Source: Pilasporangium apinafurcum (Eukaryota; Oomycota; Peronosporomycetes; Pythiales; Pythiaceae). From it: a stretch of 51,260 nucleotides of DNA. Positions 33,501 through 51,260 of this stretch are shown one piece after another. The translations under genes were made by a program, and so were the position numbers. The stretch is from contig BCKE01000103.1 in assembly GCA_001600495.1 (NCBI GenBank), positions 1 to 51,260 of the forward strand, written 5' to 3'. Position 1 is the stretch's first letter. Each line of letters starts with the position of its first letter. The notes beneath the pieces are model-generated. The model saw only the letters and a list, made by a program, of their open reading frames with translations, was not told where the DNA came from and did no database searches.

Positions 33501-36500
33501 GTGAAAAGTTGGTCTGTGATGTAGTAATTTCAGCGAGTTTCGTCTCGTACATCGGTGCATTTACAAAAGTGTTTCGTGATGTCCTGATCAATGACAAATG
33601 GATCCCGTTTCTTCGCAAGTCACTCGGAGGTACTGGAGCTAACACTACCGAAAGCAATCCATTCATGTCAAATGACTGTAATCCACTGCAGATCTTGTCC
33701 ACAGATGCTGAAATTGCGGAATGGAATACGAGGGGTCTGCCTAGTGACCGAGTATCAACAGAAAACGGTGCCATTCTGCGAAATAGTAAGCGTTGTCCGC
33801 TACTGATCGATCCTCAGCTTCAAGGCATTTATTGGCTGCGCGAAATGGAAAAACATGCGCGTCAGTCGTCACCGAATTCGCTTCAAATCGTACGTCAGGA
33901 CCAAGTTAACCTACCCCAGATCCTGGAAGCTGCTGTTGAAAATGGGCATTCGCTTGTCGTCGAAAACATGAACGAGAAGCTTGAAGTCTGTCTGTGGCCG
34001 GCCGTCTCCAGGTCAACCACAATACGCGGACACAAAACTCTACTCAAGTTGGGGGACAAGTTAGTCGAGTTACACACTAATTTTCGATTGTACTTGCACA
34101 CCAAGCTCTCGAATCCGCATTATCCTCCAGAACTCCAAGCAGAGACGACGATGATCAACTTCGCTGTGACGCAACAGGGCCTCGAAGACCAATTGCTTTC
34201 TCTAGTTGTTCGCAAAGAGTACCCAAAGAAGGCTAAGGCTCGAACAGCACTTGTGCATCAACAAAATGAGTTCAAAATTCGCGTGCAGGTGTTAGAAGAT
34301 CGTATCTTGTCCAATTTGGCCGATACTGAGGGAGACATCACAGAAAATGTTCAGGTAATCAATGACTTGGAAACCACCAAGGCAACTGCGGTGGAGATTG
34401 CTATAAAGGTGACCAAAGCCAAGGAATATGAAGCACAAATCAACGTCCTCAGTTCAAAATACCAATCAGTGGCTGCTCGTGGGGCATTGTTGTTCTTCCT
34501 CATGGACGGGCTGCATCGAATACACCCTAATTATGTCTACTCGTTGAATGCATTTGTCGTGATCTTTCAACGTGGGATCGATTTGATGGCTTCGGATAAA
34601 AGCAAAGAAGCGAGCGGACTTCGTCCAGGTAGCACAGGTAGTGGTGGTGGATTGCTGGGGCGCCTGAAAGCAGCAGCCAAGAAAGTGATCGCGACTCAGC
34701 GATTCCAATGGAATGCCGATTTGCTGCTAGCTGATCGTGTCATTGAGAATACCTCTGAACAAGATATCGACGCTTTGTTGCAGGAGGCAGACAAAGAAGA
34801 AATACTTACGCCGGCACAGATTGAGGCTCGGTGTATCCAACTTAAAGTGTCCATCACCGAAGTCGTATTTAATTATATTCGGCGCGGATTGTTTGAAAAA
34901 GACAAGTTGATTTTGGCGACACAACTTTGCTTTGCAATCCTGCAAAGTGAAAATAAAATGGAATCAGCTGATGTCCAGCAGTTGATAATGAATGGCTGTG
35001 CGAGCGATGTGGGTTCTGGTATGGGGCTACTGAACGAGTGGATGAATGAGACGACTTGGCTACGCATTAGAAATCTAGAGGAAAACATCCAGAGTTTGCA
35101 GAAACTGACAACATATATGCGGTCCGACAGTGAAGAGTGGCGGGAATGGTACGACTCCGAGAAACCCGAGGCAAAGCCACTTCCTGGGCCGTACAAAACC
35201 TCGATCACACCTATACAGTTGCTGCACATCATTCGCGTTCTGCGCCCAGACCGAATGCTTTCAACTCTGCAGACATTTTTGACCAAGCATTTGGGGAGTC
35301 AATTCGTGCAACAACCTCCATTCGACATGGAAGCAACATACCAAGAGACCAGTGCGTCTACGCCCATGTTTTTTGTGTTGTTCCCTGGCGTTGACCCTAC
35401 TTCGTGGGTGGAAACGCTGGGTAAGAAGTTTGATTTCAGTTACGAACGTGGCAATCTGATTAATATCTCCATGGGCCAAGGGCAGGAAGCGACAGCAGAC
35501 AGCATTCTCATGAAATTTTCGCGTGAGGGCAAGTGGGTGATCCTACAAAATATTCACCTGATGCAGTCATGGTTACCAAAGCTAGAAAGAGCCTTGGAAC
35601 TCTATTCAGTCTCTGCAGACCAAAACTTTCGATGCTTCCTGTCAGCAGAGGTTCCTACAATCGCCTCGATGGCTAATCTCCCAGAATCGCTGTTGCAAAG
35701 CTGCATCAAAGTCGCAAGCGAAGCGCCAACGGATTTGAAAAGCAACCTCCGACGTGCGTGGGCGCAGTTTTCACTCAAGCAGATTGATGAATGTTCACAG
35801 CCAAACGAATACCAAGCCTGTTTATTCGCGTTGTGTTTCTTCCATGCACTGGTGCTTGGACGTCGTCGATTTGGGTTTCAAGGGTGGAGTCGCATGTATA
35901 GTTTCAATACGGGTGATTTGCTTATTTGCTCAGATGTGCTTCGGCGATACATTGATAATTCATCATCGAGTACGTCATCGAGCGGATCGACGGGTTTACC
36001 TTGGGATGATTTGCGCTATATTTTTGGAGAGATCATGTATGGCGGCCATATCACTGACTACTGGGATCGGATCACGAACAACACGTACTTGGCGCATGTA
36101 TTCACGCCCAGTATCCTCGAAGGGAAAGAGCTCACCGAAGGATTCAAATGCCCTGATCCTTTCGTGTTCACGTACAGTAGATACGCTGCCTACATCGAAG
36201 AGGAGCTTCCCCAAGAATCTCCAGTGGTGTATGGATTGCACCCGAACGCTGAAGTTGGCTACTTGGTGGAAGCTTGTCATGAACTCTTCTTCACGATCGC
36301 CACGTTTCAGCCCATTTCCTCTACTGGCCCACCAGCTTCGTCTTCGGCGCCACCATCACCACCCACAACATCCTCGAGCCAAGCCAAGGAAAGCTCACGA
36401 ATCCTTTCCATCATCGAGAGTTTGCTGCATCGGCTGCCGCCACCAATCGATTTGTTGGGATTGCATGCCCAAGCCGCGCCGTTACTAACCACCGAGCAGT

Positions 36501-37333
36501 CGCCATACGTCGTTGTTGCCTTGCAAGAAGCGACGCGTATGCACACGCTGATGCATCAGATTCAAACGAGTTTGATGGAGCTGTTGAAAGGTCTTCAAGG
36601 AACCTTAAATATGACTGAAGCCATGGAAGATCTCCAACAAGCACTTTCGATTAACCAAGTGCCCGGCCGCAACCCACTACATCTCTGTTCTTGGGAAAAA
36701 TCGGCATGGTGGTCGCGAAAGTCACTTGGTATGTGGTACACAGATTTGCTTGAGCGGATCAATTTCATTGCGACCTGGACGACCGAATTCCGCTTGCCGT
36801 ACTCAGTGTGGATCTCTGGTTTGTTTAACCCCACAGCGTTTCTCACAGCCATCAAGCAATGTAATGCACGAAAACACGGGTTCCCTCTCGATTCCATGGC
36901 AATCGAAACGCATCTCACAACCATCGTGAGCGCCGAGAACGCAGAAACATATCCAGACATGGGTGCGTTCATTCACGGTCTCTATTTGGAAGGAGCACGC
37001 TGGGAACTTCCCATCAAGGACGAAGAGCAAGTCTCTCCCTTTTCATACGAGGTCGATGGTATCCCCTGTGGTGGGCATTTGATGGATCCAATACCGAAAG
37101 CGTTATTCCCAGAGATGCCGGTCGTCTACGCGCGTGCGGTGTTGATTGAAGACCAATGGGAAGCTACGAGTGTGGGGTATTTCCGCCGGAAGGACAACGT
37201 CTTTGACTGTCCGGTGTATCAGACTACACTCCGTGGTCCGACATATGTTTTCCTCGCTACGTTGAACACCATCGACCCAAAATCGAAGTGGACGTTGGCC
37301 GGTTTGTCCCTGGTCATGCAGAAAGACAACTAA
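24599..37333 (+). CDS. axonemal outer-arm dynein heavy chain with N-terminal Kelch propeller
   Basis: A single 12.7-kb exon encodes 4244 residues from ATG 24599. Residues about 15-370 carry Kelch repeats (YLFGGCDYS, IYIFGGF, IYVFGGYGG, MLVCGGW, MFVFGGV, LLVFGGW). An IPT/TIG domain (about 375-465) and a filamin-type Ig domain (about 470-575) follow, then the linker and motor. P-loops are AAA1 GPAGTGKT (about 1388), AAA2 GPPGSGKT (about 1669), AAA3 GNAGTGKT (about 2001) and AAA4 GVGGSGRKS (about 2377). The antiparallel stalk with its microtubule-binding tip spans about 2640-2945, then AAA5, AAA6 and the C-terminal domain. A Kelch head in place of the usual tail is known from the alpha heavy chain of the Chlamydomonas outer arm, so this is probably its counterpart powering flagellar beating. 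Absence of introns contrasts with several neighbours. Confidence 0.95.
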   Translation: MVVQESSSGGLLRWKTLDAVAARNGGEVPSRRSGHSLSIVGSNGYLFGGCDYSDPPGPTNDLFVLKINSSAPCEWERLRFPSSIIPLPRWKHSATVVDNRIYIFGGFHNATTRFNDLWIYNPITMEWTQFDSTSGSRAGTNAAGAAAAAHRLSVNASPLARAGAAPVTPAPRGGHSAVAIRRNIYVFGGYGGIGYGRRDFDDLYALRLEDMTWSKVTAKGKPPEKRAGHQACAVDDQMLVCGGWNSVAQFNDLHVFDTLTNCWSMVEGTHMASTLPRWNHAACAVLAIPHAKMFVFGGVMGEANNYSGQGTFMSDICVLDTGEMVWSVPEIQGMPPCGRSDTTLVYDDKGSRLLVFGGWANIWLGDLYSLDVSCVVGPPYGITGVFPEYGPITGGTALVIEGIDFINKPVTIRFSCRKGAIDVLGEYVNEHTLNVVTPDFTMYPPGDVQLRVALQGDSFTTTFQTFNFFAVTNASMCFAYGPGVLCGGASGEPTTFVIQARDAQRNIRTRGGDEFVVEVESQDMNPLFLTTLQIQDLLNGTYIVSYTAPKAGEYIVHVTFLGTFGGTAGPVRGSPYKVSFDDTVTRETNLMTGKLVLDQVIHDLQELHQLTRECNVGLDQPLSDPSWTPEQVTDALIALKEHVLNVDKRGESITLTIDELKIELAFLKDSGIAVAKEQEAISVIETAWNEILKKVPAASARIAPLISAQSLKYRNDILLYVEELQKKEAQLKKKPFWTFSVGVKAALDSINEEKAAFEQVQADYERKRHVVEVLECEEIMEPCEKIVNSMQKTLEQVHQLWQSISEVIRKIDLSKSIPWNMIDGLVLEEEAKGFMTLVKAINKGIRDCDAYKQFERVVKDFLSACPLFQALRHPSMRSRHWQELMQVTGKSFECPNDNPGLLFSDILALNLHEHQRDVEEIIDRAQKDAKQEAILQDLEARWVGVSFTMVRYKETDVPLLHLSEDVIEMLESDQLLILSIISGRHNYFQTLTYSWRAKLMVISEVTTILNDIQRSWSYLEPLFVGSEEVKRELPEVTAQFQRIDERVRKTLHQMWSQQSCGNVLLACQLPDLQSSLGDIRALLEQCQQALKEYLDSKRRMFPRFYFISEAELLDVLSNGSNPEKIMVHLEKVFLATHTLLLEKTTIGIATAIKATHFVSHDIAKECITFEQPVGIDGKAEIYLQVVLEAMHATLKSHVARSISRYPTQNRVTWLLQKLPLSSEQERTPLPMDAAQIALLVAGIIGVNGVENAFALLSKGHETAMKEYFDKVISQLNDLINLTQSILTKEDRQRVMCMITMDAHSRDIVQKLLYEKISSPSSFLWQSQLKQRRAEHTNKTYLEICDAKFEYGFEYLGNGPRLVITPLTDRIYVTATQALHIQMGCAPAGPAGTGKTETTKDLANMMGKLCYVFNCSPEMDYKNLGNIFKGLASAGSWGCFDEFNRLVPEVLSVCSVQFKAVCDGIRNDSEQVVIEGDTVRLDPTCGTFITMNPGYLGRSELPEGLKALFRPITVMAPDLVLICENMLMAEGFREAKPLASKFFSLYSLLKELLSKQDHYDWGLRAVKSVLVVAGAFKRAEPKLSEQEILMRSLRDFNLPKIVEQDLLVFNGLLGDLFPNMNPPRKVDEALEKYVHLACEELGLWPNEQFRLKVIQLQELLAIRHCVFVMGPPGSGKTECCETLVTARKKQGDDYYTKVVDLNPKTISTEELYGYMVLGTREWKDGLLSKLMRDMASASTNDPRPKWLLLDGDLDANWIESMNSVMDDNKMLTLASNERIPLKQNMRLVFEIRDLKFATPATVSRAGILYISNDDESQWRSFLASWVSTKGTNVEQRKVLGESATKYVDPIIAFIKHQCKTIVPMEEITMVQTYLYFLDAVLDADTMNDAKKIDILSGFISVWAFGAALTFTDDRSDYRKIFSEWWRSEFKHIKFPTRDTVFDYWLNPTTLTFDSWRASPHFRTVHFDGSVPMSSITVPTPETASIASWMSLMVREERPFMLCGNAGTGKTQLVQGVLNSIDTYTANKAKQAASVGTSSIGSSTVSSMSINFNYYTNSSALQIILESKLSKRVGTTFGPSDGSRLVYFLDDINLPQVDPYNTQSALALLRQYLDYGHWYDRTKFTLKQIVDVQFLSCMNPNAGSFWINPRLQRHFVTFALPQLSIASLQIIYTTFLEGYVADFVEDIRKMSANILKAALGLHTQVCGTFRKTAANFHYEFNIRHMANVFQGLLMAKPSTFEDPLKFALLWVHESTRVYGDRLVTSQDVAKFTSLVQQQARKCFPSYNFTRYFTPASATDSSSTGGDLILFCHFANGLRTNEYDQVASTQTLHTIVEEALTEHNELYTKMDLVLFKDALEHITRIVRSISNTSGHALLVGVGGSGRKSLARLSTFMCGYSLVEITITQTYSLVDFKADLQNMFMKAGVKGEGLTFLFSDNQIKTERMLVLLNDLLSSGNIPDLFNSDEQANIIQQIQPKMVAAMASAPSVQPSSHGNSTSSGLSEKSEKDQCWQWFIQEIKRNLHVVLCFSPATSDFRLRARKFPALVNCTSIDWFQPWPQDALHSVAMRFLNIHDDSSPLAKWIRSDTLMAAIQNFMPFAFQSTNSMAQEFYTKERRRVYSTPKSYLECLSLYKELLVQKQDGIERAILRLQNGLEKMDATRDVVANMEEELKTTLEEAEKKKVLVEELALRLQKDKEVVESETVKANVEKEKCAIIQADVSTKKADTEADLAQAQPMVEAAMAALDTLNKKDLGSCKTMSKPPAGVGDIFGAVVVLFAGINPNITVQKNGKVKDKDRSWETTKKVLLGNINAFVDELKAFKTLVDDQQVPEVNWKEIRPFLQLEHFNVEIIEKKNSAAAGLCAWVINIVQYYDAIVVVEPKKKALAEANEKLRAANEKLELVNQKLSALEAKLATLTAEYDQTNKDVEDAIRAVERGRLRMELATRLTAALGSESVRWSEELGQLQARSEKLVCDVVISASFVSYIGAFTKVFRDVLINDKWIPFLRKSLGGTGANTTESNPFMSNDCNPLQILSTDAEIAEWNTRGLPSDRVSTENGAILRNSKRCPLLIDPQLQGIYWLREMEKHARQSSPNSLQIVRQDQVNLPQILEAAVENGHSLVVENMNEKLEVCLWPAVSRSTTIRGHKTLLKLGDKLVELHTNFRLYLHTKLSNPHYPPELQAETTMINFAVTQQGLEDQLLSLVVRKEYPKKAKARTALVHQQNEFKIRVQVLEDRILSNLADTEGDITENVQVINDLETTKATAVEIAIKVTKAKEYEAQINVLSSKYQSVAARGALLFFLMDGLHRIHPNYVYSLNAFVVIFQRGIDLMASDKSKEASGLRPGSTGSGGGLLGRLKAAAKKVIATQRFQWNADLLLADRVIENTSEQDIDALLQEADKEEILTPAQIEARCIQLKVSITEVVFNYIRRGLFEKDKLILATQLCFAILQSENKMESADVQQLIMNGCASDVGSGMGLLNEWMNETTWLRIRNLEENIQSLQKLTTYMRSDSEEWREWYDSEKPEAKPLPGPYKTSITPIQLLHIIRVLRPDRMLSTLQTFLTKHLGSQFVQQPPFDMEATYQETSASTPMFFVLFPGVDPTSWVETLGKKFDFSYERGNLINISMGQGQEATADSILMKFSREGKWVILQNIHLMQSWLPKLERALELYSVSADQNFRCFLSAEVPTIASMANLPESLLQSCIKVASEAPTDLKSNLRRAWAQFSLKQIDECSQPNEYQACLFALCFFHALVLGRRRFGFQGWSRMYSFNTGDLLICSDVLRRYIDNSSSSTSSSGSTGLPWDDLRYIFGEIMYGGHITDYWDRITNNTYLAHVFTPSILEGKELTEGFKCPDPFVFTYSRYAAYIEEELPQESPVVYGLHPNAEVGYLVEACHELFFTIATFQPISSTGPPASSSAPPSPPTTSSSQAKESSRILSIIESLLHRLPPPIDLLGLHAQAAPLLTTEQSPYVVVALQEATRMHTLMHQIQTSLMELLKGLQGTLNMTEAMEDLQQALSINQVPGRNPLHLCSWEKSAWWSRKSLGMWYTDLLERINFIATWTTEFRLPYSVWISGLFNPTAFLTAIKQCNARKHGFPLDSMAIETHLTTIVSAENAETYPDMGAFIHGLYLEGARWELPIKDEEQVSPFSYEVDGIPCGGHLMDPIPKALFPEMPVVYARAVLIEDQWEATSVGYFRRKDNVFDCPVYQTTLRGPTYVFLATLNTIDPKSKWTLAGLSLVMQKDN

Positions 37334-37526
37334 AATTTTGACATTAGAGCAATATACGAACTGAACCTGTGGTGAAGACAACACTCTTTGTAATTGCGTT
37401 CTTCATCGTTTTACATTTGACAATTAGAAAGAGGTTGATATCAATCGACATTGCAGCACATGCATAAGTTCATCAAAATGGATCAATAAACTCCTTGCTT
37501 TCCAGTACAAACTAAGCAGCGCGGGC
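37334..37526. other. convergent intergenic spacer
   Basis: 193 bases between the stops of the dynein and homogentisate dioxygenase genes. It should hold both 3' untranslated ends. No further feature is seen. Confidence 0.5.
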
Positions 37527-39516
37527 CTAAGGCTGGTTGGGATTAAAGAGCTTGGGCATTTGTTGCCAGCACTTCCAATAGTTGGAGTCGTTGTGGTCAC
37601 AGTTGAGCGCATAGTCGGTCAGCTTAATGAGATACGTAGTTTCAAACATAAACGCTAATCCGCCGTCAAATTTGTGTGGCTTCAAGTCCGCGTTGGACGC
37701 AGCGAGGAATGTCGCAGCATCTGGTCCATGTGGCGTGTCGACACTGTGAAGCGAGGCACCACCAGGGACAAAGCCGTCCTCTCCGCCTTTTTTGGCGTCA
37801 TACGTACCATAAACCATGCCCATGTACTCGGACATGCAATTGCGGTGGAAGTATGGGGGGCGGAAGGTATGTTCTTGTACCTAATTTCAAGAACAATATG
37901 AGTCAGAAACTAGATCTTGAATGAAAAGTGTGCTGCCATGCCGCTTACCATCCATCGAGGTGGGAAGATCACAAAATCAGCCACAGCATTTCCTGGCTCA
38001 TCGGTTTGACAGGTCAAAACACAGTAAATTGATGGATCCTAGTGCATCAAGCAAATATTAGCGTGCCAAGTCATAGTAGCAAAATTGTGTAATGTGGAGA
38101 TAGCAGTACTTACTGGGTGATCGAAGCTGACGGAATTCATGGTGCAGAAGTTGTCCAAGTTGTACTTGTATGGCACATAATTTCCGTGCCACGCCACCAC
38201 ATTAAACGGCGAAAACGACATCCTTGCTGAGAACATCTTGCCTCCAAACTAAGCAGGCATAAGATCAATATTCTCAAGTTAGCGACCCACCGTACTACGC
38301 AAACATCACAGCAGCCAAAGAAAACGGTGGTCCAATCTTTTGTTACCTTGTTGACAACAAGGAAATCGCATTCGCGATCTTCATACGCAGCAACAGGGTG
38401 TTCAAAGTCACGAGGGTTGGCCAGACCGTTGGCACCAATGGGTCCAAGATCAGGGAGCGTAAAATGGCGATTGTACACCTCCAAAATATAACCGCGAGAA
38501 GGTTCATCGATCGCTACCGAGAATCGAATTCCGCGCTACAATCATCATCAGCCACTAATCGTTAATTCTTCGCGCATATTCGACTTCTTCGATCGAATTG
38601 CATCAATAGTTTACCTGGATCACGCAAATCTCATGCGGTGATACCAGCAGTTTGCCGAATTCGGTGGTGATTTTCAGCACTCCATGCTGTGGAACTGATC
38701 ACAATAAATTTATCGTCAGCAGCCACAATTACTCGCTAGTTATCATGATAGAATTAGCGCATACCGATGAGATAATCGCCATCGGAATTGTAAAAGCACT
38801 TGTCCATCATGGAACGATTGGCTGCGTACGTGTGAATAGCCATTCCTGTCTTCAACGTCGGTTCTCCAGACCCACCTATTCGTTCAATAAATCGATAAAT
38901 TTTGTGAGTCACGGTAAGCAAAGAATAATTTTCACTCAGAACCCAGGAATGATCTTTACCGATAGTGCGCATTCCTTCAATGAAATCCAGGCTTTCCGAT
39001 TCATGTGGGAATGGAATCGGTCTCCATCGCATTTGCTGCGGTGTGAGCGTGGCGTTGGAGAAGTCTGCATGGATGAACGGATGCTCGATTTCCTTGTATT
39101 TCTCATGCACCACTGGTGGCAAGATGCGGTAAAGCCAACTATAAATCATGAAGAAAAAGAAAAAAATCAGTTGCCGTATAGATAGGAATGAAAATATACT
39201 GTGAGCGAGTGTAATGCACCTTCGTTGGTTCTTGTGGCGTGGGAGCGTGAACGCCGTGCCCGAGAGTTGCTCTGCATACAGTCCATACGCACACTATCCG
39301 CAAACAGCAAACCAATGTAATCAACAACGGTTCGATCCATTGCATTCACAAAGCGACATGTTTTACTTTTTGCGGGTTATTTTGTGCTTTCGGGAGTGCA
39401 TTTGGGAGTGTTTCCGAGCAGAAATGGCCGCCAAATCCTGGTAGATACGGCAATTTTTCCCATTCGGTCGCAAATGCGTTTTCCGCGCGCGGGGTCTTCT
39501 CTGCGTGGCTGCTCAT
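37527..39516 (-). CDS. HGD: homogentisate 1,2-dioxygenase
   Basis: Eight exons: 39516-39367, 39293-39220, 39138-38765, 38694-38615, 38535-38347, 38248-38114, 38038-37949 and 37880-37527, giving 481 residues. Family landmarks run throughout: [92 protein letters not shown] and TPHGPDA. The Fe(II) ligands His, Glu and His known from the human enzyme are present in HRNCMSE and TPHG. It opens the ring of homogentisate to maleylacetoacetate in tyrosine and phenylalanine breakdown, in the cytosol. The N-terminus is about 20 residues longer than usual ([20 protein letters not shown]) with no targeting signal I can call. Introns are 68-98 bases and phases agree throughout. Confidence 0.95.
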
Positions 39517-40388
39517 TGTGAACTGGTGAATCTTGTGCTTCTACATGTGGCGCTTTGTCTTCACTTTCCGTCGTTTACAGGTGTTTAGATGAGTTTATTG
39601 ACGCCCATCACCCTAAAATAGCAACCATAGTTAATAGCGAGTGGCTTGATATACTACTGTAAACGTGTGGTTTGACATGATGACAATCATTCTTTTGTTC
39701 CTAATTGAGGGTAACTCATTCTGTTTGTTAGGGGGATCTTCAACTTCAAGTGTGATGTCAGCGTTTCTTTTGCACCACTGCCATCAATTTAGTCTTCTAA
39801 TCAATCTCATGGCTACTGCCATCGAATACTCAAACAACACTTGCAGCAATGGATCTCGTGGTTGCTCTCGTTGTATTCGTTTGAACTTACAATGTATCCC
39901 CCTCTCGGAGACAACAGTCGAGAAACAATGGCAATAGCACATTGTGCTGGGTGCTACATCATGTAAAGGGCATTTCGGTTGGTGTTTGTTGCTCTTTGAG
40001 GATAACGAATACTGAGGAACTTGATGAACTCACCATATACCTCACATAGTTGATCATTGCTTACCCAACAGACAAGGCGTTGCATGAGCTCTAGTCTGTC
40101 GTTACTCTACAATTCTATATACATTCCGGGAGAAATAGGGCAGCAGAGTGGAAGACCTATACCAGACAAGACGTGCTTAGTACTATGGTTCACAAAAAGC
40201 AGGAAGACTGCACAAATGCAACAATGAGCTTGGTCGGGAGAATGCTATTTCTCTAGTCGTGCATTAGTCCCGGTAAATATACAGTGCATCATTCAATCAC
40301 GGCAAAATATTAGTTCAGTACAATATACCGTAGTATATACCGGGAATTGCCTTGCCAAAACGTCGGAATCTGTCAAAAACTGATTACG
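39517..40388. other. intergenic between HGD and the paralogous gene array
   Basis: About 870 bases between two divergent genes. A 90-codon frame at 39665-39937 is rich in Leu, Ser and Cys and shows no domain; I do not call it a gene. The inverted repeat at 40268-40345 is described separately. Confidence 0.5.
40268..40345. promoter_or_regulatory. inverted repeat just upstream of array gene A
   Basis: TCCCGGTAAATATAC at 40268-40282 and GTATATACCGGGA at 40333-40345 are imperfect inverse copies, 50 bases apart, ending 43 bases before the ATG of gene A. The core CCGGTA/TACCGG is the same as in the ARPC2 bidirectional promoter. Confidence 0.35.
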
Positions 40389-41996
40389 ATGGCCCACCTT
40401 CCAGATGCGGAGTTTCTGACTGCATTCACTACTGCGAGTGATAATGACAACGAGCGTATACAAGAACCAGTATGTCTGACAGATATGTGTCTACCACCAG
40501 GAGTACTGGTGGATCAGGAGTGCACGGACGAGGCGGTGTTAATAGACGACCTTTTTGGCGCAGATGGGGATTTCTCAGCCATACTTGCTGCATTTGAGGC
40601 AAGTGATGAAAATGAGGAGACCGATTACAACCTTGGCGATGATTTATCATCATCCAACACACCAACCGTCAATTCTGATGATATTCCATCGCCATCAACT
40701 GTTGAGACAACTCATAGTTTATGCAGAAAACCTCCACGGAAACGACGTAAACACGAACTGGACCGCCTCAGGGTGCTGATTGCGGCTCTGGAACGTAAAC
40801 TGACAGCGTTGAAGATCAAAACTCAACCTAATGAAACTGCATCGAGCATAATGGAGCACCAAAGCTGGCAGCGTGTGACCGCGCAGATGCTGGCTGCTAA
40901 GCAAAGAACAATGGGTGAAAACGCTAGATTGCGCGAGATTATGCACGAACAAATCAAGATAGTCAGGGCCCTGCAGCGTTCGCTTGCGAAGAGCCCCGAT
41001 TTAAGCGTAAGTATGGATTGGAGCTGTACACAAGTTTTCTCTCTTATGCGTTCTTTCTTTTGGTTGACAGAAACTCGGGATTTTCCCTCGGATAGATCAG
41101 CGCATCAATCCAGTCGAATCGTCCTCCAAAGCGCTTTACAAGAGCATGCTTGAGAGTATTATGTCCTCCTATCAGCGCATGGACAGTGTGTTCGCACAAG
41201 CGGACGTCCCAGATCCTCGTAAATCTTCACGGAAGCTCAATATGGAGATGCAAACCGAAGGCGATTGTCGCGTGATGTGCATACAGGTTGTGGAAAGCCG
41301 TGTCGTGCCGTGCAGTTTCTTGTTCATTGGGGATATGGCCTGGGAGTATTTGGCGAAGGAGAACGACGAGCGGCAACGCACAGGGTTTTATTTGGTACGT
41401 TTGATCAGTGAACCGTTAGATTTTCCATTTCTATTGAATTTATCCAACTATCCAATGCGCTCCCTGTGGTTTTTCTGACTGAAGGGATTTGAAAGTTTTG
41501 GCGATGTCATGTTTGGCGATTGCGCGTTTGATTCCCCATCGGAACGTGTAAAGTTAGAAGGCAAAGTAGCGCTGCGTCGCTTTAAGGAGAAGAATCGCCT
41601 CACTTTCGTTTGGGAATTCCTCGGACCCGCACAAACCGATTTCTTACAGCCACCTGCCGTTCGTCTTCTTCAAAAAGGATGGTAAACAAACAGCGACCAG
41701 AATGAGTGCTGTCGCAAACATATTATAGACGAAATTGACACTGTTGCATTTCTGTTGCGTGTAGGTTCGTGTTTGAGCCTTCGGAAGATGATCCACTCAA
41801 CACAAGTGTTTGTCGTACATGCATTCATTTCACTCCGACCCCCGAGTATCCTGGCGACAGCATTAATACAAACGCAATGGATGTTGGTCTCACGACAGGG
41901 CTTGTCTTGAGTGTCTTTGAGAAGACTGTGGGCTATATCTTTGAATCGGTGGTCAATTCGTTGTTGAAAAATTTGCTCTACCCACCGACGAAGTGA
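40389..41996 (+). CDS. array gene A: bZIP-like / START-like family protein
   Basis: Four exons: 40389-41006, 41071-41394, 41485-41681 and 41765-41996, giving 456 residues. The start ATG 40389 gives MAHLPDAEFLTAF, like the starts of genes B and C. An acidic N-terminus is followed by a basic stretch PPRKRRKHELDRLRVLI and a helix with spaced Leu residues (about 118-205, ending QRSLAKSPDLS). The C-terminal half holds the shared domain: LNMEMQTEG, CIQVVESRVVPCSFLFIGD, LRRFKEKNRLTFVWEF, FVFEPSEDDPLNTSV and VFEKTVGYIFESVV. I read this half as START/SRPBCC-like from its length and pattern. Oomycete databases, as I recall, label such proteins 'M96 mating-specific protein family'. A transcription-factor role is inferred. 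It lacks the first intron found in B, C and E. Confidence 0.8.
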
Positions 41997-42710
41997 TCCT
42001 CAAGCGCACGTATACGTGTAGATATAGATACTGGCTATATGGCAATGTGATCTGAAGCTCAAGTACATTTTCTCACACTGACGAGATACATGCAAGAAAT
42101 TTCTCGATTTTTGTAGAGCTGGTTGTAAGCTGACCCGTTCATTTTCGGAGATGAGCATCCAGAATTTTGCAACGAGATCGGGTCGAAATATTTGAAGCTG
42201 CAATCGGTACGTAGATTTCTATGACATCAGCGAAAACACCAAGCTGGAGTCAATGGATTCCGATAAGAGCCCATCCACGCTTGTTGCAATCACGGTCAAT
42301 CATGTACAAGCGCTTCGATGAAGAGAAAGTTTGAGCAACTTAAATGGCAAACAGCATTCACTAGGCTGTTCATAACGCTATTGTTTGTTCAAAATTTGAT
42401 ATGGATCGAATAGAACTTAGCAATTGCACCGCTGTCATTTGAGATGATTAGGAAACTCATCAAGGGCATTTGCAACTTGTAAACTTGGGCTAGAATACAA
42501 AAACAATCACGATACCAAATCTGCATAGAAGCGAATCAAGAAAATAGGATTCATAAAATTTGTCCATCTGTCCATCCTTCTAAAAGTAAAGGAATGATTG
42601 CGCTCTAGTGGCAATCATCTTTGACCTTCGAGGAAATAGGAAGTGTTCACTAATCGGCAGCTCAAATTCATATCCAAAACCACACACAACAGTACACACA
42701 GCGACTCCCA
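41997..42710. other. intergenic between array genes A and B
   Basis: 713 bases, with no coding frame resembling the family and no RNA gene seen. It should hold the promoter of gene B. Confidence 0.5.
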
Positions 42711-44348
42711 ATGGCGCAGCTTTCCGAGGCAGCTCTGATGGATCTCCTCACGCAGATCGATCACGGTGATCCATGTGCTGCAATTGGCCACACCGCCCAT
42801 GGCCTTAGCTGTAAGGTATTGTTCATCACAGCGACTCTTTTGATCTATTAAATACCTGTGAGACTGACTGAAGCAAGTGTTGTTCTCTACTGAAGCAAGA
42901 AAGCGTAAATCCATGGGAATCGACACGAGTGCCGTTAAGTTGGAATTTCCTGGCCGTTGATTTGGATTTTATAGAATCACTTTCCGACCATGACGAAGGC
43001 CGATTGGATGTGACAGCCTCAGACTCACCATCCACTTCAACATCGTTGCCTGACCCAAAACGAGATGATCAGAACAAACCAACTCCATCGAAAAATTGTC
43101 GGCGTCTGCGCAAACGACGGAAACACGAGCTTGATGATCTACGTGCTACATCATTAAGACTTGAAGACCAACTGGAACACCTTAAGAAAGCCGCGGGAAT
43201 TGACAAACCCGGTGCGATTGACTCCTGGAAAGCGAGAGCTGACAAGCTGTTACTTACCAAGCAGCAATCCATGCGCGAAAATGCTCGACTTCGGCAGATT
43301 CTCAAAGACCAATCTCGAGTCATACGTATCGTTCAGCGCACGCTTGCCAAGAGCCCTGATTTATCTGTATGTGTTTTGACAATCGGGTGTCTTTCATCAT
43401 GCAGGAAAAAGATTGATATTATATTTTTTTTATGCGACTTTGTTGTGTAGGAACTAGGGGTGATGCCGAACCGCCCTGCAAATGGTCAGCTTCAGTCCCC
43501 AACCTCGAATCTTTACGACAGCTTGTTTGCCAGTATCACGTCGTCATATTATCAGTTGGATAATTTTTTCCGCAATATTACGTTTCCAGATCCAGCGCTC
43601 TGCAAGAGAATGGTCAGTATGCAGCTTGAATGCAACGGGAGTGAACCCGTGATGGACATGCAAGTCGTGAAAAGCAAAACTATACCATTCAGCTTGGAGT
43701 CCGTTGGAGATGCTGTGCTAAAAGTACTGTCGTTAAAGGACCAAGCAGAAACAGATCGAGACGAATGGCAACCAGTATGGCGACCTAATTACCATTTTAT
43801 GTGTCTAACCACGACTAATTCACTGGTGGTATCGATAACATTAGGCTTTGGAGAAACATGGCGATAATTTCTTTGGCGCATGTCACGTCCTGTGTCCAAG
43901 TGATCTAGATCTTCATGGGCAAATCGCCATCCGTCAGTTTACAGAAACGAATCGACTCTCGTATTTGTGGGAGTGCAATGAGTTCTGCACGAGTGAAACC
44001 CGCGAGAAGCCAGCGATTCATATTCGGGACAAAGGCTGGTGCGTTACATTCATGTGGTGTTTTGAAGACAACGAAAAAAATTGAATTCTAGCGATGTGGA
44101 TTCTTTTCATGATGTATAGGTGTGTGTTCGAACCAGCCGAGGAAGACCCGCTGCGATCCACTGTGATGCGTTTGTGCGTGCAATTCAAGGTATCGTCAGC
44201 GACGGCGGGAGTGACGTTTGGGTTTTCTCCGAAGGACATCGGCAATACAACAGAGATAGTACTGAACATCCACGACAAGGTAATGGGGCATTTATTTCGT
44301 ATGATACAGGACTCGTTATTGTCAAGTGTAGCAGTCACATCCATGTAA
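42711..44348 (+). CDS. array gene B: bZIP-like / START-like family protein
   Basis: Five exons: 42711-42815, 42896-43366, 43451-43774, 43845-44038 and 44120-44348, giving 440 residues. Exon 1 (35 codons, MAQLSEAALMDLLTQIDHGD) matches exon 1 of gene C closely. Exon 2 has the basic region RLRKRRKHELDDLRATSLRL, a Leu-spaced helix and a Gln/Arg-rich end (ARLRQILKDQSRVIRIVQRT). Exons 3-5 hold the shared C-terminal domain (MDMQVVKSKTIPFSLESVGD, IRQFTETNRLSYLWEC, CVFEPAEEDPLRSTV). Genes B and C are the most alike pair, so they probably arose by the latest duplication. The last intron interrupts a Trp codon after TG, as in all five genes. A DNA-binding role is inferred from the basic/leucine pattern only. 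Confidence 0.8.
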
Positions 44349-45315
44349 TACTTGAGAAGAGCAATCTTGCACAACCTAACACGTGAGGTATTTAAAGTAC
44401 AGCAGGTAAATAGAACTTGCCGTGTATCGACAACTTTCGGGACCTTGTGCTTTAAAAATGACCAACGTGGCCATGGTCGATGCTGAGATGAGGCTACCAC
44501 AACATTTTTGTTTGGTGAACATCCAGAAATCACAGAATGTGATATCCACTCCGTATTCAATGGTATCACTGTTCTCGCAGAAAATAGGGCAGAAAACTGT
44601 AGAGCTATCCATGCACTGCAAACGCAGTATCATGATCTGACCATGCAGATTTATTGCAGACATGGAAATCGTATTCAGGATGAGCAGCTCCAACAGCATT
44701 CTTTAACCTCAAAAGATCATATGAGCCATCAAAGTACCTCGGGGAGGACCTCCTGTTTTTCTTTGGGTCCGACTCAACAGCAAAAGCTGACTAAGACCAG
44801 ACGACCGCAGCGTAGGCATATCCGACACCTGGACTCTGAAAACAAGTCTTTGTTGCATACTGTCCCTCACACTCGATCACGCATCCTCCAGTCCTTTCCG
44901 TCTTGTACTTCGATAGCTTCTTGAACTTGTAGTGAGATCACGTGAACATTGCTTTTGACGCTCTGCTTGAACGTCATTGCTTCATATCCGTCCTTGAAGA
45001 GAAGAATGGCACTGAAAAGAGTTCATTACGGAGAAATCGAAACGAGTTTTTGCTTCTACCAATGTGGATTGGTTTGCTTCAAAAAACGCATCAAAGTGTA
45101 TCCTATTGGTAGGAGAAATAGGATAGAGCATAAGAAAAATCTTCCAGAAAATAGAAGCTAAAATACTGTCATCCGAATAAAATAAGGAATGAATGTGTTT
45201 ACTGTGTCCCTATATCGTACAGTAGAGGAAGTACAGTAATCACAAGATGAGCCTTTTGATGTTCAGAACGAAAAGAACAACCAAGCACACACATAAGACA
45301 TCAAAGCAGACGGCG
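44349..45315. other. longest spacer in the array, with an unassigned open frame
   Basis: 967 bases between genes B and C. The stretch 44508-44924 is open on the + strand for 139 codons but has no ATG in frame upstream, only TTG. Its product looks partly helical (VLAENRAENCRAIHALQTQY) with a basic patch (KTRRPQRRHIRHLDSENKSL). It could be an exon of an unrecognised gene or a decayed relative; I cannot align it to the family. Confidence 0.3.
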
Positions 45316-46927
45316 ATGGCGCATATTTCGGAAGCAGATCTGTTGGATTTCCTCACGCAGATCGACCACGATGGCCCAGATGTTACAACTGATGATATCA
45401 GCGACGTCCACACCCATAAGGTATGTATCACAGTCAACGCAACCATTGATATGCGGCTAACTAACATTGGGTGGCTATAGGAGGACAGCACAAGCGCATG
45501 GGCATCAGTGCAAGATAATCTTTTCACCGACGATATTAATGGTTTTTCGGGCGTACTTTGTGACAGCGATGGAGGAGGATCCGATACATCGTCTGACACA
45601 ACATCATCATCAACATCCTCGACTTCAGCCTCTTCACCTGACCCGAAACGAAAACAAAGCAAAACAACAACTGCCATAAAACCACGTATAAGAAGGAGAC
45701 GCAAACAGGAAGTCGATGCTCTGCGTGCGATGTCCACAATGCTCGAAAAGCAACTACAACAGCTGAAGGAAGCCGCAGGACTTGACAAACCCGACACACA
45801 TAGGTTATTGAAGGCGACGGCTACCAAGTTGCAAATTGCCAAACAGCAATCTATGAGCGAGAATGCGCGGCTACGACAAATCCTGAAGGATCAATCCCGT
45901 GTTGTACGCACTATCCAGCGGTCGCTCGCCAAAAGCCCCGACTTATATGTACGTAGAAGAATAGGTAGGTTGTCATGGCAAGTCAATCATGAAGTTGATC
46001 GTATATTTTATTGCGTTTTCTGTGTAGAAACTTGGTGTGGTGCCTTCTCGGCCTGCGAATCATTGCTTTCACTTACCGTCGACCAGTATCTACGACGATA
46101 TGTTTGCGAATATTGCGAACAGATACCATGAACTGGGCAGGATATCCCAGGGTGTGGTCTTCCCAGATCCAAAACTGGACAAGCGAACGGTAAATATGCA
46201 AATGGAAAATAGCAGAGACAGTCACGTGATGACATTACAAGTCGTGGAAAGCAAACTCCTCCCATTCAACTTGAAAATTATTGGCGAGGCTGTGTGGAAT
46301 TCGCTCACGGGTACTGACTATCCAGGCGAGAAAGAAAGAGAAGAATGGCAACCAGTAAGTGTCAATTAGTCTTATCCTTTCTTGGTACCTACTAACACGT
46401 TATTGCTCCTAAACTTGCCGCAATTCAGACACTAGAGAAACGGGGTAATGACCTGTTTGGATCATGTTTGATTCACAGTGGCCATAACGCGATAGATCGA
46501 GCGGGTCGCCTCGTCATCCGCCGATATGAGGAATCGAATCGACTCGCATTTTTATGGGAGTGCAATGGCTATTGCCAGAGTGAGAACAGTAACAATCCAT
46601 ATATCCATTTTCGAGACAATGGATGGTGAGTAGCATGCATGTGGCATTAAACGGCGTGGAGATTTTCAGGCTGATGTTCTGCTATTCAGGTGCGTGTTGG
46701 AACCGGCAGAAGAAGATCCACAACATTACACTGTGATGCGTCTTTGCGTACACTTCGTGCCAACATTGCCTGCCACTGAGTCGGCATTTACGCCTTTGCC
46801 AATCGATATTGGGAGCATGACAGCAACAGCGCTGAACTTGCATGAGCAAACTGTGGGAAATTTGTTCACTTCAATCTACGGGTCCTTGTTGGCTAATATA
46901 GCAGTAGCACCTACTAAAGTGTATTAA
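45316..46927 (+). CDS. array gene C: bZIP-like / START-like family protein
   Basis: Five exons: 45316-45420, 45481-45948, 46028-46354, 46429-46625 and 46690-46927, giving 444 residues. I start at ATG 45316 (MAHISEADLLDFLTQIDHDG) by comparison with gene B; an in-frame ATG at 45247 would add 23 basic residues. After a Ser/Thr-rich stretch comes the basic region IRRRRKQEVDALRAMSTMLE, where the usual KRRKHELD is altered to RRRKQEVD, then the Leu-spaced helix. The C-terminal domain is complete (VMTLQVVESKLLPFNLKIIG, IRRYEESNRLAFLWEC, CVLEPAEEDPQHYTVM, LHEQTVGNLFTSI). Intron positions equal those of gene B; the 60-base first intron is the shortest in this array. Confidence 0.8.
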
Positions 46928-47351
46928 ATAATCAATTCTCTTTAATGCTTGCTCACTTTCTTGATGTCTTGCAAATGCGGCCACAACATATCAGGAGAGA
47001 ACGAAATAATTTGTTTTGCGTTAGAATGTATGTTACAACCTAACGGAATGTATGTAGGGCGTTTACGTCCATGGTGCTGGCCATCAACACCTTTTATCCT
47101 TTTTACTTTATGAGTATTCAGGTTTGATAAGTAGCTGATACTGGAGGTTGTTGGCATTTATCCAAGTTGACAAAATAGGACTCCTAAATATCCTAACAAT
47201 TGAGAATAAAATACACATTATTATTCTGAGTGTAAGTTATTTGGAATATCCGGATAAATAAGCCCATAGTATACTTTGCTCAGTATTAGGCGGCCGTTTT
47301 CCCGGATACAGGTGTTGAACATTGGCGAAGGGCTCCATCACTTATTACGAA
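46928..47351. other. intergenic between array genes C and D
   Basis: 424 bases, AT-rich, with no coding or RNA signal. It should contain the promoter of gene D. Confidence 0.5.
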
Positions 47352-48917
47352 ATGGCGGCATCACCTCAAAATGACGATGATTTCTTGCCCGTGCTCGAAG
47401 AAATAGACAGCGACAGTAACAGTGTAGCTGCTCACAGTACACCAGATACGCATCTATTGAGCAGCAGCCCGCTAGAAAGTGTGAGCGAATGGCCAGAAGG
47501 AGAGTTCGCAGTCGACAGCACCAGTTTCTTCGATGGGGATGTGGACATGTCTGACATAATGGGAACGCTAGAATGCAGCGATGAAGGGTGCAGTAGTCTC
47601 ATATACGAGATTAATAGTCAAGATAAACCTGGATCATTAATAGAAGAAAGTGTCGGGACCATTAAGGAAACAGATAAGAAACCAAGTCGTAAGCGACGAA
47701 AGCACGAGGTTGACCGTTTGCGCTCCGAGATTTCGATATTGGAAACAAAACTCCACTCACTCAAAAGTCAATCGTGCAGCAACGATATGAAGAGAAATTC
47801 AGACGGAAATGATACATCCAAACAAATTTCGGTCCAGATGTGCGTGGAAAAGCAGCGCGCATTGTCTGAAAACGAACGCCTTCGACACATTCTTCAGGAA
47901 CAGCTCAAGCTAGCTAAGTCGGTACAACGATCGCTAAACCGAATGACAGGATTAAAGGTAAGAAACTTGCTTAGTGTGCCTGAATATCTTGGTTTTTATA
48001 CATATTTGCGATGTTGTATCTGTTAAATGTGTCTAGGAGTTTTGCACTCTCCCGTTGCAGCAACGGCTAGACAAAGTCAACCCTTGTTCGAAGGAGATTT
48101 TTGGGAATTTGTTTGACTGCATTGCATCCTCCTACTTGGAAACAGACACCATGTTCCAGCGTGCAGAAGTTCCAGACCCACGCCAGAACACCCGCAACCT
48201 AAATATGCAGCTAAAGAACGACGGCAATCAAAGCGTGCTGCGAATTCAGGTCGTAGAAAGCAAGCTCCTTCCCTTTAGTTTCGCGTTCATTAGTAACGCT
48301 GCATGGAGATATCTCTCCAGTGAAAACGACGAGCGGAAGCGCACTGGTTTTCATTTGGTTGGTATTATAATCCTGTCTCGCGTTTTGTCCATGCTGTTTC
48401 AACTAAGTGTTGTGATTGATTATTCCCAATCTGTAGATATTCGAAGATTTAGGAGACGATATGGTTGGTGTATGTAAACTAGACAGCTCGGCATCTCTTA
48501 TGGAAGTGGCGGGACATGTTGCTATCCGTCGCTATATTGAACAGAATAGGATCATATTTGTATGGGGAATGCTCGGTAGTGCCCAAAGCCATGCAACGCA
48601 AAATCGATTCCAAGATATTGGATGGTAAGGCTAAATATTTTAGACATATCATGTGGTCGTCCTGGCTTTCTAATCTTTGTGCTGGTATCAGGGCCGTATT
48701 TGAACCCTCGCAGGACGATCCGCTGCATTCGACTATCATTCGGGCATGTCTACAGTGCACACCATTGTCAATTACAAACGAAACGGAAACCAATTTTAAA
48801 GAGGTTGGCGTGACCATGGAACTCGTATTAGCTGGATACGAGAAGACTGTGGGCTACATTTACCAGGCCGTCACCGACATGCTGCTGAAAGAGTTTCTAG
48901 GTGCATTACCGACTTAA
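47352..48917 (+). CDS. array gene D: bZIP-like / START-like family protein
   Basis: Four exons: 47352-47957, 48037-48357, 48437-48624 and 48692-48917, giving 446 residues. ATG 47352 (MAASPQNDDDFLPVLEEID) is the first ATG in frame. The N-terminus is strongly acidic, as in activation domains. The basic region PSRKRRKHEVDRLRSEISIL is followed by a Leu-spaced helix. The C-terminal domain shows LNMQLKNDG, RIQVVESKLLPFSFAFIS, IRRYIEQNRIIFVWGM, AVFEPSQDDPLHSTI and GYEKTVGYIYQAVT. It resembles gene A most: both have a single long first exon, and both end exon 2 with ENDER(K/Q)RTGF. The donor after exon 2 reads GTTGGT, which is unusual; its place is fixed by homology to the other genes. Confidence 0.78.
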
Positions 48918-49288
48918 AATGTTCTTTCAAGCAGTAATCGGTCTCACACCTGCACTGCATCCATGTCGTTCCTTCAACATCATCGTCGTCAAACCCTTGA
49001 AGTCGACGGCAAAGATTTATTCTTGTAGCTCTAGTCCATTCTGATCTATTAAGTATTTCAAAGAGGGTACCGGTTGCTATCGAACGCAAGTATTATGACG
49101 AGTGACAGAGAGCTCACAGGCTGTCATTGGAGAAGAAATTAATTGTAGCGTGCGATGAGAATCCTCTAATCTGTGTGGATGGCATATGACGAACTGGAGG
49201 TTTTGCGCATCCCTTAGAACCTATTCTATCTGTTATAAGAGGTTTGTTTATGTTGGCCCTTCTTCTATCCAGCTCACACAAAATAGAA
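48918..49288. other. intergenic between array genes D and E
   Basis: 371 bases without coding signal. TACCGG occurs at 49068-49073, about 220 bases before the start of gene E. Confidence 0.5.
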
Positions 49289-50912
49289 ATGTCCAAGATG
49301 CAGAGCTCAGAGACAGAACTAATGCAGGTGCTGGCGCAGATCGATGCTGGAAACCTCCACAAAAATGCCATGAATGGCGCTCTACTCTCACCGAAGAAGA
49401 AGGTTGGGTAGTATGATGTGTTATGCTGACTCTTGAAAGATACATGACAAAGTTTGTAACCGTAGCTCCTTATGGACGACATCAATCTGCCTCAATTAGC
49501 GAAAGTACAAGCACCGGAATCCATTGAGGAATTGCTAGCTAATGATATTTTCATCGCAGACGATGCTTTTTCGGGATTTACGGACACATTCATGGACCTA
49601 AACCCCGACGAAGAGAATTTCGATAGTCTTTCCGAATTAGCAGGCAGTCCTATGGCAACTCCACCACTTTTGTCATCCAAACCGTCGTTGGCAAAAAAGC
49701 AATCGTGCACACAGAAACCGCGTCGAAAGAGACGTAAACATGAACTGGATAGGCTCCGCGAATTGGTGACTACATTGGAACAGCATCTGAGCCGATTGAA
49801 GCATGCAGCGGGATTGGACGAGACAGGTACCAACTCCTCCTGGAAGAAACTTGCAGACCGCGTGTTAGTGGAAAAGCAGCGATCGTTGGTGGAAAATACG
49901 CGATTGCGTACGCTTGTGGTCGAGCAATTACGCGCAGTCAATGTCCTACAGCGATCCCTCGCGAAAGTCCCAGATTTAAGCGTAAGCAAGTACACTTTCT
50001 GTCGTCCTGACAGGCTACGCTGTGAAATTATTCTGCCAATGGTGTCGTTCTTATAGAAATGCGGATTTGCCCAGTTACCTCAGCCAATATATCAGCAAGT
50101 CTATCCGTCTCGATTTGGGAGCAATATGAGCAACATGTTTAACCAGAAGGACACTGGCGAGTCAGAGCGGAGGGTGAAGATGGAAATGATTCGCGTTGGT
50201 TCTCGGCACATGATGAGCCTGCAAGTAATGGAGACCAAAATCGTTCCCCTTAGCTTTCAAGTTGTTGGGGAGGCAGCATGGGTGTGTCTATCACGTGATG
50301 AACAAAACCATAACGGATTTACACTGGTAAGTAGCCGTCTACTGAATCTGTTGGGGTTCAATATTCTTGCTTGATCTGTTTTTACATGATTCTTCTTTTC
50401 AGGCTGTTCAGAAGCAGGGCGATGAAATCTACGGCAAGTGCATGATTGAGTCGAGTTCCGGCCCAAAGAAACTGCCGGCAAAAGTGTCATTTCGGCGTTA
50501 TGTCGAGTCCAACAAGATCACGTTTGGCTGGGAAAGTGTAGGATCATACCAGTTTGGTTGCACGAGAAGCATTAGTACACCTACGCTTCGTCTTCATCAA
50601 CAAGGATGGTACGTCTCCATCAGACACTTTGAATATATGGTTTGACTAGGTCTACTTCTGTATGATTATTAAATCACTAAACTATTTTACAGGTGCATGT
50701 TTGAACCTACACAGGATAATCTACTGCCCTCCACGCGATATCATACGTGTGTGCAGTTCACACCGACACCGGACGAAGAGGATTTTGCTGCCACGTCCAA
50801 GGATATTGGTTATGCTACCGAATTAGTGCTGGCTGTCTACGATATGACAGTGAACAATCTGTACAAGGCAGTTGTTGGTACATTATTCGAACATGCTGGT
50901 ACATCGTCTTGA
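49289..50912 (+). CDS. array gene E: bZIP-like / START-like family protein
   Basis: Five exons: 49289-49402, 49466-49981, 50057-50326, 50403-50608 and 50693-50912, giving 441 residues. Exon 1 (MSKMQSSETELMQVLAQIDA) corresponds to exon 1 of genes B and C, but its donor reads GTTGGG, so that joint is less sure; if it is wrong, the protein starts at ATG 49472 inside exon 2. The basic region KPRRKRRKHELDRLRELVTT and a Leu-spaced helix with two Val-Glu steps follow. The C-terminal domain is complete but most divergent: exon 3 is 90 codons against 107-109 in the others, losing the stretch before RRVKMEMIRVG. Landmarks are SLQVMETKIVPLSFQVVGEA, FRRYVESNKITFGWE, CMFEPTQDNLLPST and VYDMTVNNLYKAVV. Confidence 0.78.
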
Positions 50913-51260
50913 TGCACCACAAAAATTTTTGCAGTGGTGATGGTGACTTTAGATTATAACATTATGAGAATCTAAAACATCATCCCCATTGCCATTACAA
51001 GAACGACGACGGAAGCAAAGATGATCCATTCATCGCTCTTTCACTCCAGATATAAGCGTCCAGCGTGTGGTAATGTCTCCGTGCCCGTTTAACCTTTATT
51101 CCCCACTTGTACAACGCGTTGTATAAATGATGTGGGGAATAAAGATTAAAACTAAGATTGCCTTGTGTTGTTATTAGGTGTATTGAGGGCGGAGTGTAGT
51201 GCTGAGTTGGAGGCTAATCTGAAAGTAAATGGAATTGAGTTGGGTTTACCGGAGCACATT
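50913..51260. other. array end; hairpin and possible exon of the next gene
   Basis: 348 bases to the window edge. Apart from the hairpin at 51094-51144, the last 80 bases are open on the + strand and give protein-like sequence (RAECSAELEANLKVNGIELG). This could be the start of an exon that continues past the window, with an AG acceptor near 51177. No start codon is seen and I do not recognise the product. Confidence 0.3.
51094..51144. repeat. perfect 13-base inverted repeat with inner palindrome
   Basis: CTTTATTCCCCAC at 51094-51106 pairs exactly with GTGGGGAATAAAG at 51132-51144. Between them lies the 14-base perfect palindrome TACAACGCGTTGTA at 51110-51123. Each outer arm also contains AATAAAG on one strand, a polyadenylation-like signal. 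It could be a transcript end working both ways or a small inverted-repeat element. Confidence 0.6.

Follow-up and report, generated by a model that had tools for sequence, protein, structure and literature searches.

Do the five similar genes crowded towards one end of a contig of the oomycete Pilasporangium apinafurcum encode regulators that join a leucine zipper to a ligand pocket, as the plant HD-ZIP III/IV factors do, and how far does that likeness go? The contig in question, BCKE01000103.1 (C103), was analysed over its whole length of 51,260 nucleotides, here called the window, and searches of the genome covered an assembly of 36.5 Mb in 136 contigs. The five genes, g1 to g5, very likely share one architecture: an acidic N-terminus, an RKRRK basic patch with a leucine helix, a second long helix and a C-terminal domain. 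Their zipper resembles that of basic leucine zipper (bZIP) proteins, and structural modelling indicates that the C-terminal half probably has a START-like fold.

Positions 40389-50912 are filled by five complete genes on the + strand, encoding 456, 440, 444, 446 and 441 amino acids (aa) in splice-aware models with GT..AG introns. The automatic splice-aware search yielded models for g1, g3, g4 and g5, and the model of g2 was assembled by hand:

40389..41996, + strand: g1, 456 aa; exons 40389-41006, 41071-41394, 41485-41681, 41765-41996; sole model within the splice-site ranges searched
42711..44348, + strand: g2, 440 aa; exons 42711-42815, 42896-43366, 43451-43774, 43845-44038, 44120-44348; hand-built, with four alternative donor/acceptor combinations at intron 1 and two acceptors at intron 3
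45316..46927, + strand: g3, 444 aa; exons 45316-45420, 45481-45948, 46028-46354, 46429-46625, 46690-46927; 10 splice variants, those listed differing by few residues
47352..48917, + strand: g4, 446 aa; exons 47352-47957, 48037-48357, 48437-48624, 48692-48917; 3 acceptor variants at intron 1, giving 438, 445 or 446 aa
49289..50912, + strand: g5, 441 aa; exons 49289-49402, 49466-49981, 50057-50326, 50403-50608, 50693-50912; sole model within the ranges searched

In the chosen models the introns are 60-90 bp long and the exons end in phases 0/0/2 (g1, g4) or 0/0/0/2 (g2, g3, g5), the latter three genes having one extra 5′ intron without counterpart in g1 and g4; all other intron positions and phases are common to the five. 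All ten pairs among the predicted proteins match by blastp (E = 2.0e-124 to 1.1e-56, identity 31-46%), and at E ≤ 1.1e-56 throughout, the common plan is therefore not a matter of chance. The gene models and these matches agree with the first-pass annotation of this DNA, which had proposed five consecutive same-strand genes for proteins of 440-456 residues with a single plan and acidic N-termini; the N-terminal part is acidic in all five, with a net charge of -9 to -25 over 97-116 residues. The three conserved motifs it had named hold in part: QVVESK is exact in g3 and g4 (QVVESR in g1, QVVKSK in g2, QVMETK in g5), RRYxExNR is likewise exact in g3 and g4 with variant forms in g1, g2 and g5, and FEPxxxDP is found in g1, g2 and g4, while g3 has LEP and g5 ends in DNL instead.

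On these comparisons g1-g5 are old tandem paralogs. The duplications appear old because protein identity is 31-46% and because, by blastn among the array genes, a match at the DNA level is left only in two short stretches shared by g2 and g3, which are also the closest pair (46% identity, tree support 99/99). The array had been suggested to be a local expansion; it is not a recent burst and not purely local, since most members of the family lie elsewhere in the genome. A further copy on contig C116 (186-12557) was 100% identical to window positions 38889-51260 wherever the two were compared, in six overlapping pieces, and is probably a redundant contig reflecting assembly redundancy, so that C116 was excluded from the counts of family loci.

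Six-frame searches of the genome with g3, g1 and one relative consisting of a single open reading frame (ORF) revealed, at E ≤ 0.001 and outside C103 and C116, at least 41 further family loci when neighbours within 1500 bases were merged, or at least 45 when merging was limited to 600 bases; a single contig, C6, holds at least 25 or at least 29 of them, respectively. With the window included, the family comprises about 46-50 loci, a figure to be read with the proviso that some of the further loci align over the zipper part alone and therefore could be other coiled-coil proteins. One family match on C6 (99028-99658) is interrupted by internal stops and is perhaps a decayed copy. C12 carries another family gene, which is similar in its exons, and its protein stands with the window genes on one side of a branch with support of 100/100, in a tree in which the C12 protein was roughly joined and the inner fork was not separated. 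Nine single-ORF relatives were scanned with Pfam, and eight of them, the short L070 being omitted, entered an alignment with g1-g5 (A2) that contains 11 invariant columns spread across the start methionine, the zipper, the second helix and the C-terminal domain. In a separate alignment (A4), g3 and g4 are not represented by a row for the middle exon of their C-terminal domain. The family has no meaningful match in NCBIfam (best E 0.052), no relative was confirmed in viral and bacterial/archaeal collections with one family member as query, and a sequence search of the PDB returned a few weak matches, mostly to coiled-coil chains, the best being multicilin (E = 0.026). This is a large gene family without Pfam recognition, of which the array is a small part.

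The region that gives these proteins their likeness to transcription factors can be located most closely in g1:

40725..40820, + strand: g1 RKRRK basic patch and first zipper helix; residues 113-144, leucines at bZIP heptad positions, positions 13-38 of the bZIP hidden Markov model (HMM)
40839..40991, + strand: g1 second long helix predicted by AlphaFold2 (AF2); residues 151-201, with an ENARLR motif

The basic region of bZIPs follows the motif N-x7-R/K, with Asn (and AA). Numbered in the bZIP register, all five window proteins have leucine at positions 11, 18 and 25, arginine at 1, 3 and 4 and lysine at 5. The DNA-contacting Asn at position -7 is absent from every one of them (H, P, T, K and Q in g1-g5), and g1, g3, g4 and g5 carry a proline at -1 or -2. 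None of the five exceeded the bZIP cut-off in a Pfam scan, in which bZIP_1 matched one protein (E = 1); in the genome scan g4 reached 16.5 bits against bZIP_1, where the cut-off is 27.6. As a reference we used six Asn-keeping bZIPs of the same genome, namely L094-L097, which are four of the five best genome matches to bZIP_1, L091, which is over the bZIP_2 cut-off, and L093, which is under both cut-offs. The family's zipper columns aligned to the genome's bZIPs with a probability of 74 (hhalign, E = 2.8e-5, bZIP positions 10-38), compared with 1.4 for the reversed control (E = 0.036). An HMM of the six bZIPs matched all five window proteins at E = 4.5e-4 to 0.021 in a set of 26 sequences, where the best reversed control reached 0.17; among eight relatives, two beat that control and six did not. 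The matches of g1-g5 start at positions 10-13 of 38, and so cover only the C-terminal half of the basic region. The zipper is thus classed on sequence as bZIP-like, neither a canonical bZIP nor an HD-ZIP; it is not canonical because its alignment to the genome's bZIPs is limited to that half and the Asn is absent in all five. What stands of the earlier label ‘bZIP-like’ is the agreement in leucine register and in the basic region's C-terminal half, while the Asn-containing half is gone. A continuous dimerising helix, which had also been expected, gives way to two helices: AF2, run on exon 1 of g1 and its counterparts, predicts them at 118-144 and 151-201, separated by a break around 145-150; the first begins within the RKRRK patch. 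The predicted local distance difference test (pLDDT) score in g1 averages 58 over residues 111-120, so that the helix start within the basic patch is uncertain, then 90-91 over 121-140, 69 over 141-150, 77 over 151-160 and 92-97 over 161-200. Foldseek returned no matches for the exon-1 model.

The C-terminal half was approached by modelling the domain of g5, with which that of g1 is homologous:

41071..41993, + strand: g1 C-terminal START-like domain, exons 2-4
50057..50909, + strand: g5 C-terminal START-like domain, exons 3-5, the part modelled

The template-free AF2 model of the g5 domain is of low confidence (pLDDT 45.4, predicted template modelling score 0.43) and contains intron-derived inserts, and the first helix of this domain is shortened relative to the paralogs (alignment A1). 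Among the 50 Foldseek matches listed, all 43 with informative titles are structures of the START/Bet v 1/PYL/PR-10 type, the best being the START domain of CERT (E = 2.8e-4), with low TM-scores. The best rows of a second structure comparison (VIA) are the lipid-trafficking proteins 4xhr and PRELID3a; taken together, the closest structures are CERT START, Ara h 8, PYL receptors, PRELID3a and the StARkin domain of Lam4. The earlier suggestion of a START-like C-terminal fold is in this way borne out at the level of the model, and a helix-grip/StARkin fold is likely. Kinship with the Pfam START family by sequence, in contrast, gained no support: no window protein matches Pfam START at E ≤ 10, a comparison of the family's C-terminal domain with the START profile (hhalign) stayed at control level, and none of the 19 genome matches to PF01852 lies on C103, C116, C6 or C12. 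Two of the Asn-keeping bZIPs, L091 (C21:425900-427900) and L093 (C26:281300-283000), have long C-terminal domains that look START-like by eye; as a bridge to START these domains gained no support, every hhalign comparison remaining at control level. If the fold is as modelled, START-like domains in such genomes are missed by sequence models.

The plan nearest to that of the window proteins is that of plant HD-ZIP III/IV factors, in which a zipper is followed by a START-fold domain and from which ligand-gated transcription can be borrowed as a working model. Unlike these factors, the window proteins have no homeodomain, their basic patch continuing straight into the zipper; they have a second long helix between the zipper and the START-like domain; and the latter is invisible to Pfam START. 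No homeodomain was matched by Pfam in the five proteins at E ≤ 10, while the genome has seven homeodomain matches at E ≤ 0.01 (on C5, C35, C46 and C18), and the proposed kinship with HD-ZIP III/IV is rejected on that ground. PMC3645734 describes HD-Zip as unique to the plant kingdom. Oomycete bZIPs resemble the array proteins in leucine register and in the C-terminal half of the basic region, and clustered gene expansions are also reported for them in parts of PMC11267843 and PMC4046829; in the P. infestans and P. sojae variants with Cys, Val or Tyr one residue is replaced, whereas in the window proteins the whole Asn-containing half is absent. No word beginning with START occurs in the main text of PMC4046829, which deals with P. 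sojae bZIPs. With the START/StARkin/SRPBCC (Bet v 1-like) superfamily the window proteins share the predicted helix-grip fold without detectable sequence similarity. The genome's own Pfam-recognised START proteins possibly belong to the same fold superfamily, and some have FYVE- or PH-like parts by eye; neither FYVE nor PH was matched by Pfam in the five window proteins. The Phytophthora M96 mating-specific family also forms tandem clusters in oomycetes, and its proteins are characterised in sections of PMC5999078 as secreted, His-rich and then Gly/Ser/Tyr-rich. By that definition an M96 identity is rejected, as the window proteins are by eye neither of secreted type nor rich in His, Gly, Ser or Tyr.

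We tentatively favour a dimeric, mainly nuclear regulator with a pocket domain. The acidic N-terminus, modelled with low confidence and probably disordered, could act as an activation or docking region; the short basic patch and three-heptad zipper, bZIP-like minus the N-terminal half of the basic region, are followed by a second helix of ~50 residues, and the two helices would dimerise the protein, possibly also with true bZIPs. The patch may bring about nuclear entry and at most partial contact with DNA, direct DNA binding being a prediction that we hold less probable than the nuclear role itself, and the START-like domain would bind a hydrophobic ligand or a partner protein and so change activity. 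The missing half of the basic region would also suit cytoplasmic lipid-transfer or scaffold proteins in which the helices oligomerise, the patch binds acidic membranes or RNA and transcription plays no part. The lipid-trafficking proteins at the top of the VIA comparison and the mostly coiled-coil matches in the PDB point the same way, as does the statement, in parts of PMC5288373, that in P. sojae predicted monopartite signals are weak, being insufficient for nuclear import. We consider this reading rather unlikely, however, as the acidic N-terminus and the in-register bZIP match suit a regulator better and Pfam finds no membrane-targeting domain in the five proteins.

A zipper in register with half of its basic region gone is also what would be expected of Id-like, dominant-negative partners that keep canonical bZIPs off DNA, with the START-like domain as a ligand-controlled switch or stability domain. 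Possible partners exist in the genome, where 18 of 69 bZIP_1 matches exceed the cut-off, and heterodimer blocking has been proposed for non-canonical P. infestans bZIPs (in portions of PMC11267843). Yet dimerisation with bZIPs is putative, and all five proteins retain the RKRRK patch (R at 1, 3 and 4, K at 5), a feature for which a pure blocker would have no use; we hold such a role unlikely. Quite improbable, finally, is that modelling produced a spurious START-like match and that the true fold of the C-terminal domain is another one, specific to the lineage: the low pLDDT and TM-scores, the intron-derived inserts and the lack of sequence similarity to START would fit, but 43 of 43 informative Foldseek titles (50 listed) fell into a single superfamily without the use of any template.

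Elicitins are an oomycete family of sterol carriers. The genome has 52 elicitin matches, 50 of them over the cut-off, and a single match, under the cut-off, to PF13249 (the N-terminal part of squalene/oxidosqualene cyclase), other sterol enzymes not having been searched for. Because no squalene cyclase match and 50 elicitin matches pass their cut-offs, the organism has the genomic look of a sterol-scavenging oomycete, and the premise of sterol uptake in the first-pass annotation fits. Lipid- or sterol-gated transcription by the array proteins is nevertheless hypothetical and doubtful. So, to a similar degree, is the fuller proposal that the oomycete family evolved independently of plants, senses lipids, perhaps scavenged sterols, through its START-like pocket, and controls transcription directly or by sequestering canonical bZIPs. 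If true, zipper-plus-START regulators, described as a plant speciality, would have a counterpart of similar plan in another lineage; dozens of such genes in an organism seemingly without sterol synthesis would make lipid-gated transcription testable outside plants; and a large regulator family outside Pfam recognition would gain a name. In the oomycete and stramenopile literature within reach of our search, which lacked most subscription papers, no account of such a zipper-plus-START-like family came to light. Four Phytophthora genes with START-like domains are linked to sporangium formation in sections of PMC11062530, and these might belong to the array family.

A probable homogentisate 1,2-dioxygenase gene lies next to the array on the - strand (~37520-39350, limits by eye; one Pfam hit at 38754-39149), and a 138-aa ORF, for which Pfam gave no match at E ≤ 0.001, lies between g2 and g3 (44508-44924, + strand). 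Farther away on the + strand, an uninterrupted ORF of 4244 aa (24599-37333) encodes a dynein heavy chain with N-terminal Kelch repeats and a filamin repeat, and an ORF of 810 aa (12119-14551) combines a dual-specificity phosphatase with a FYVE finger and a rhodanese-like stretch.
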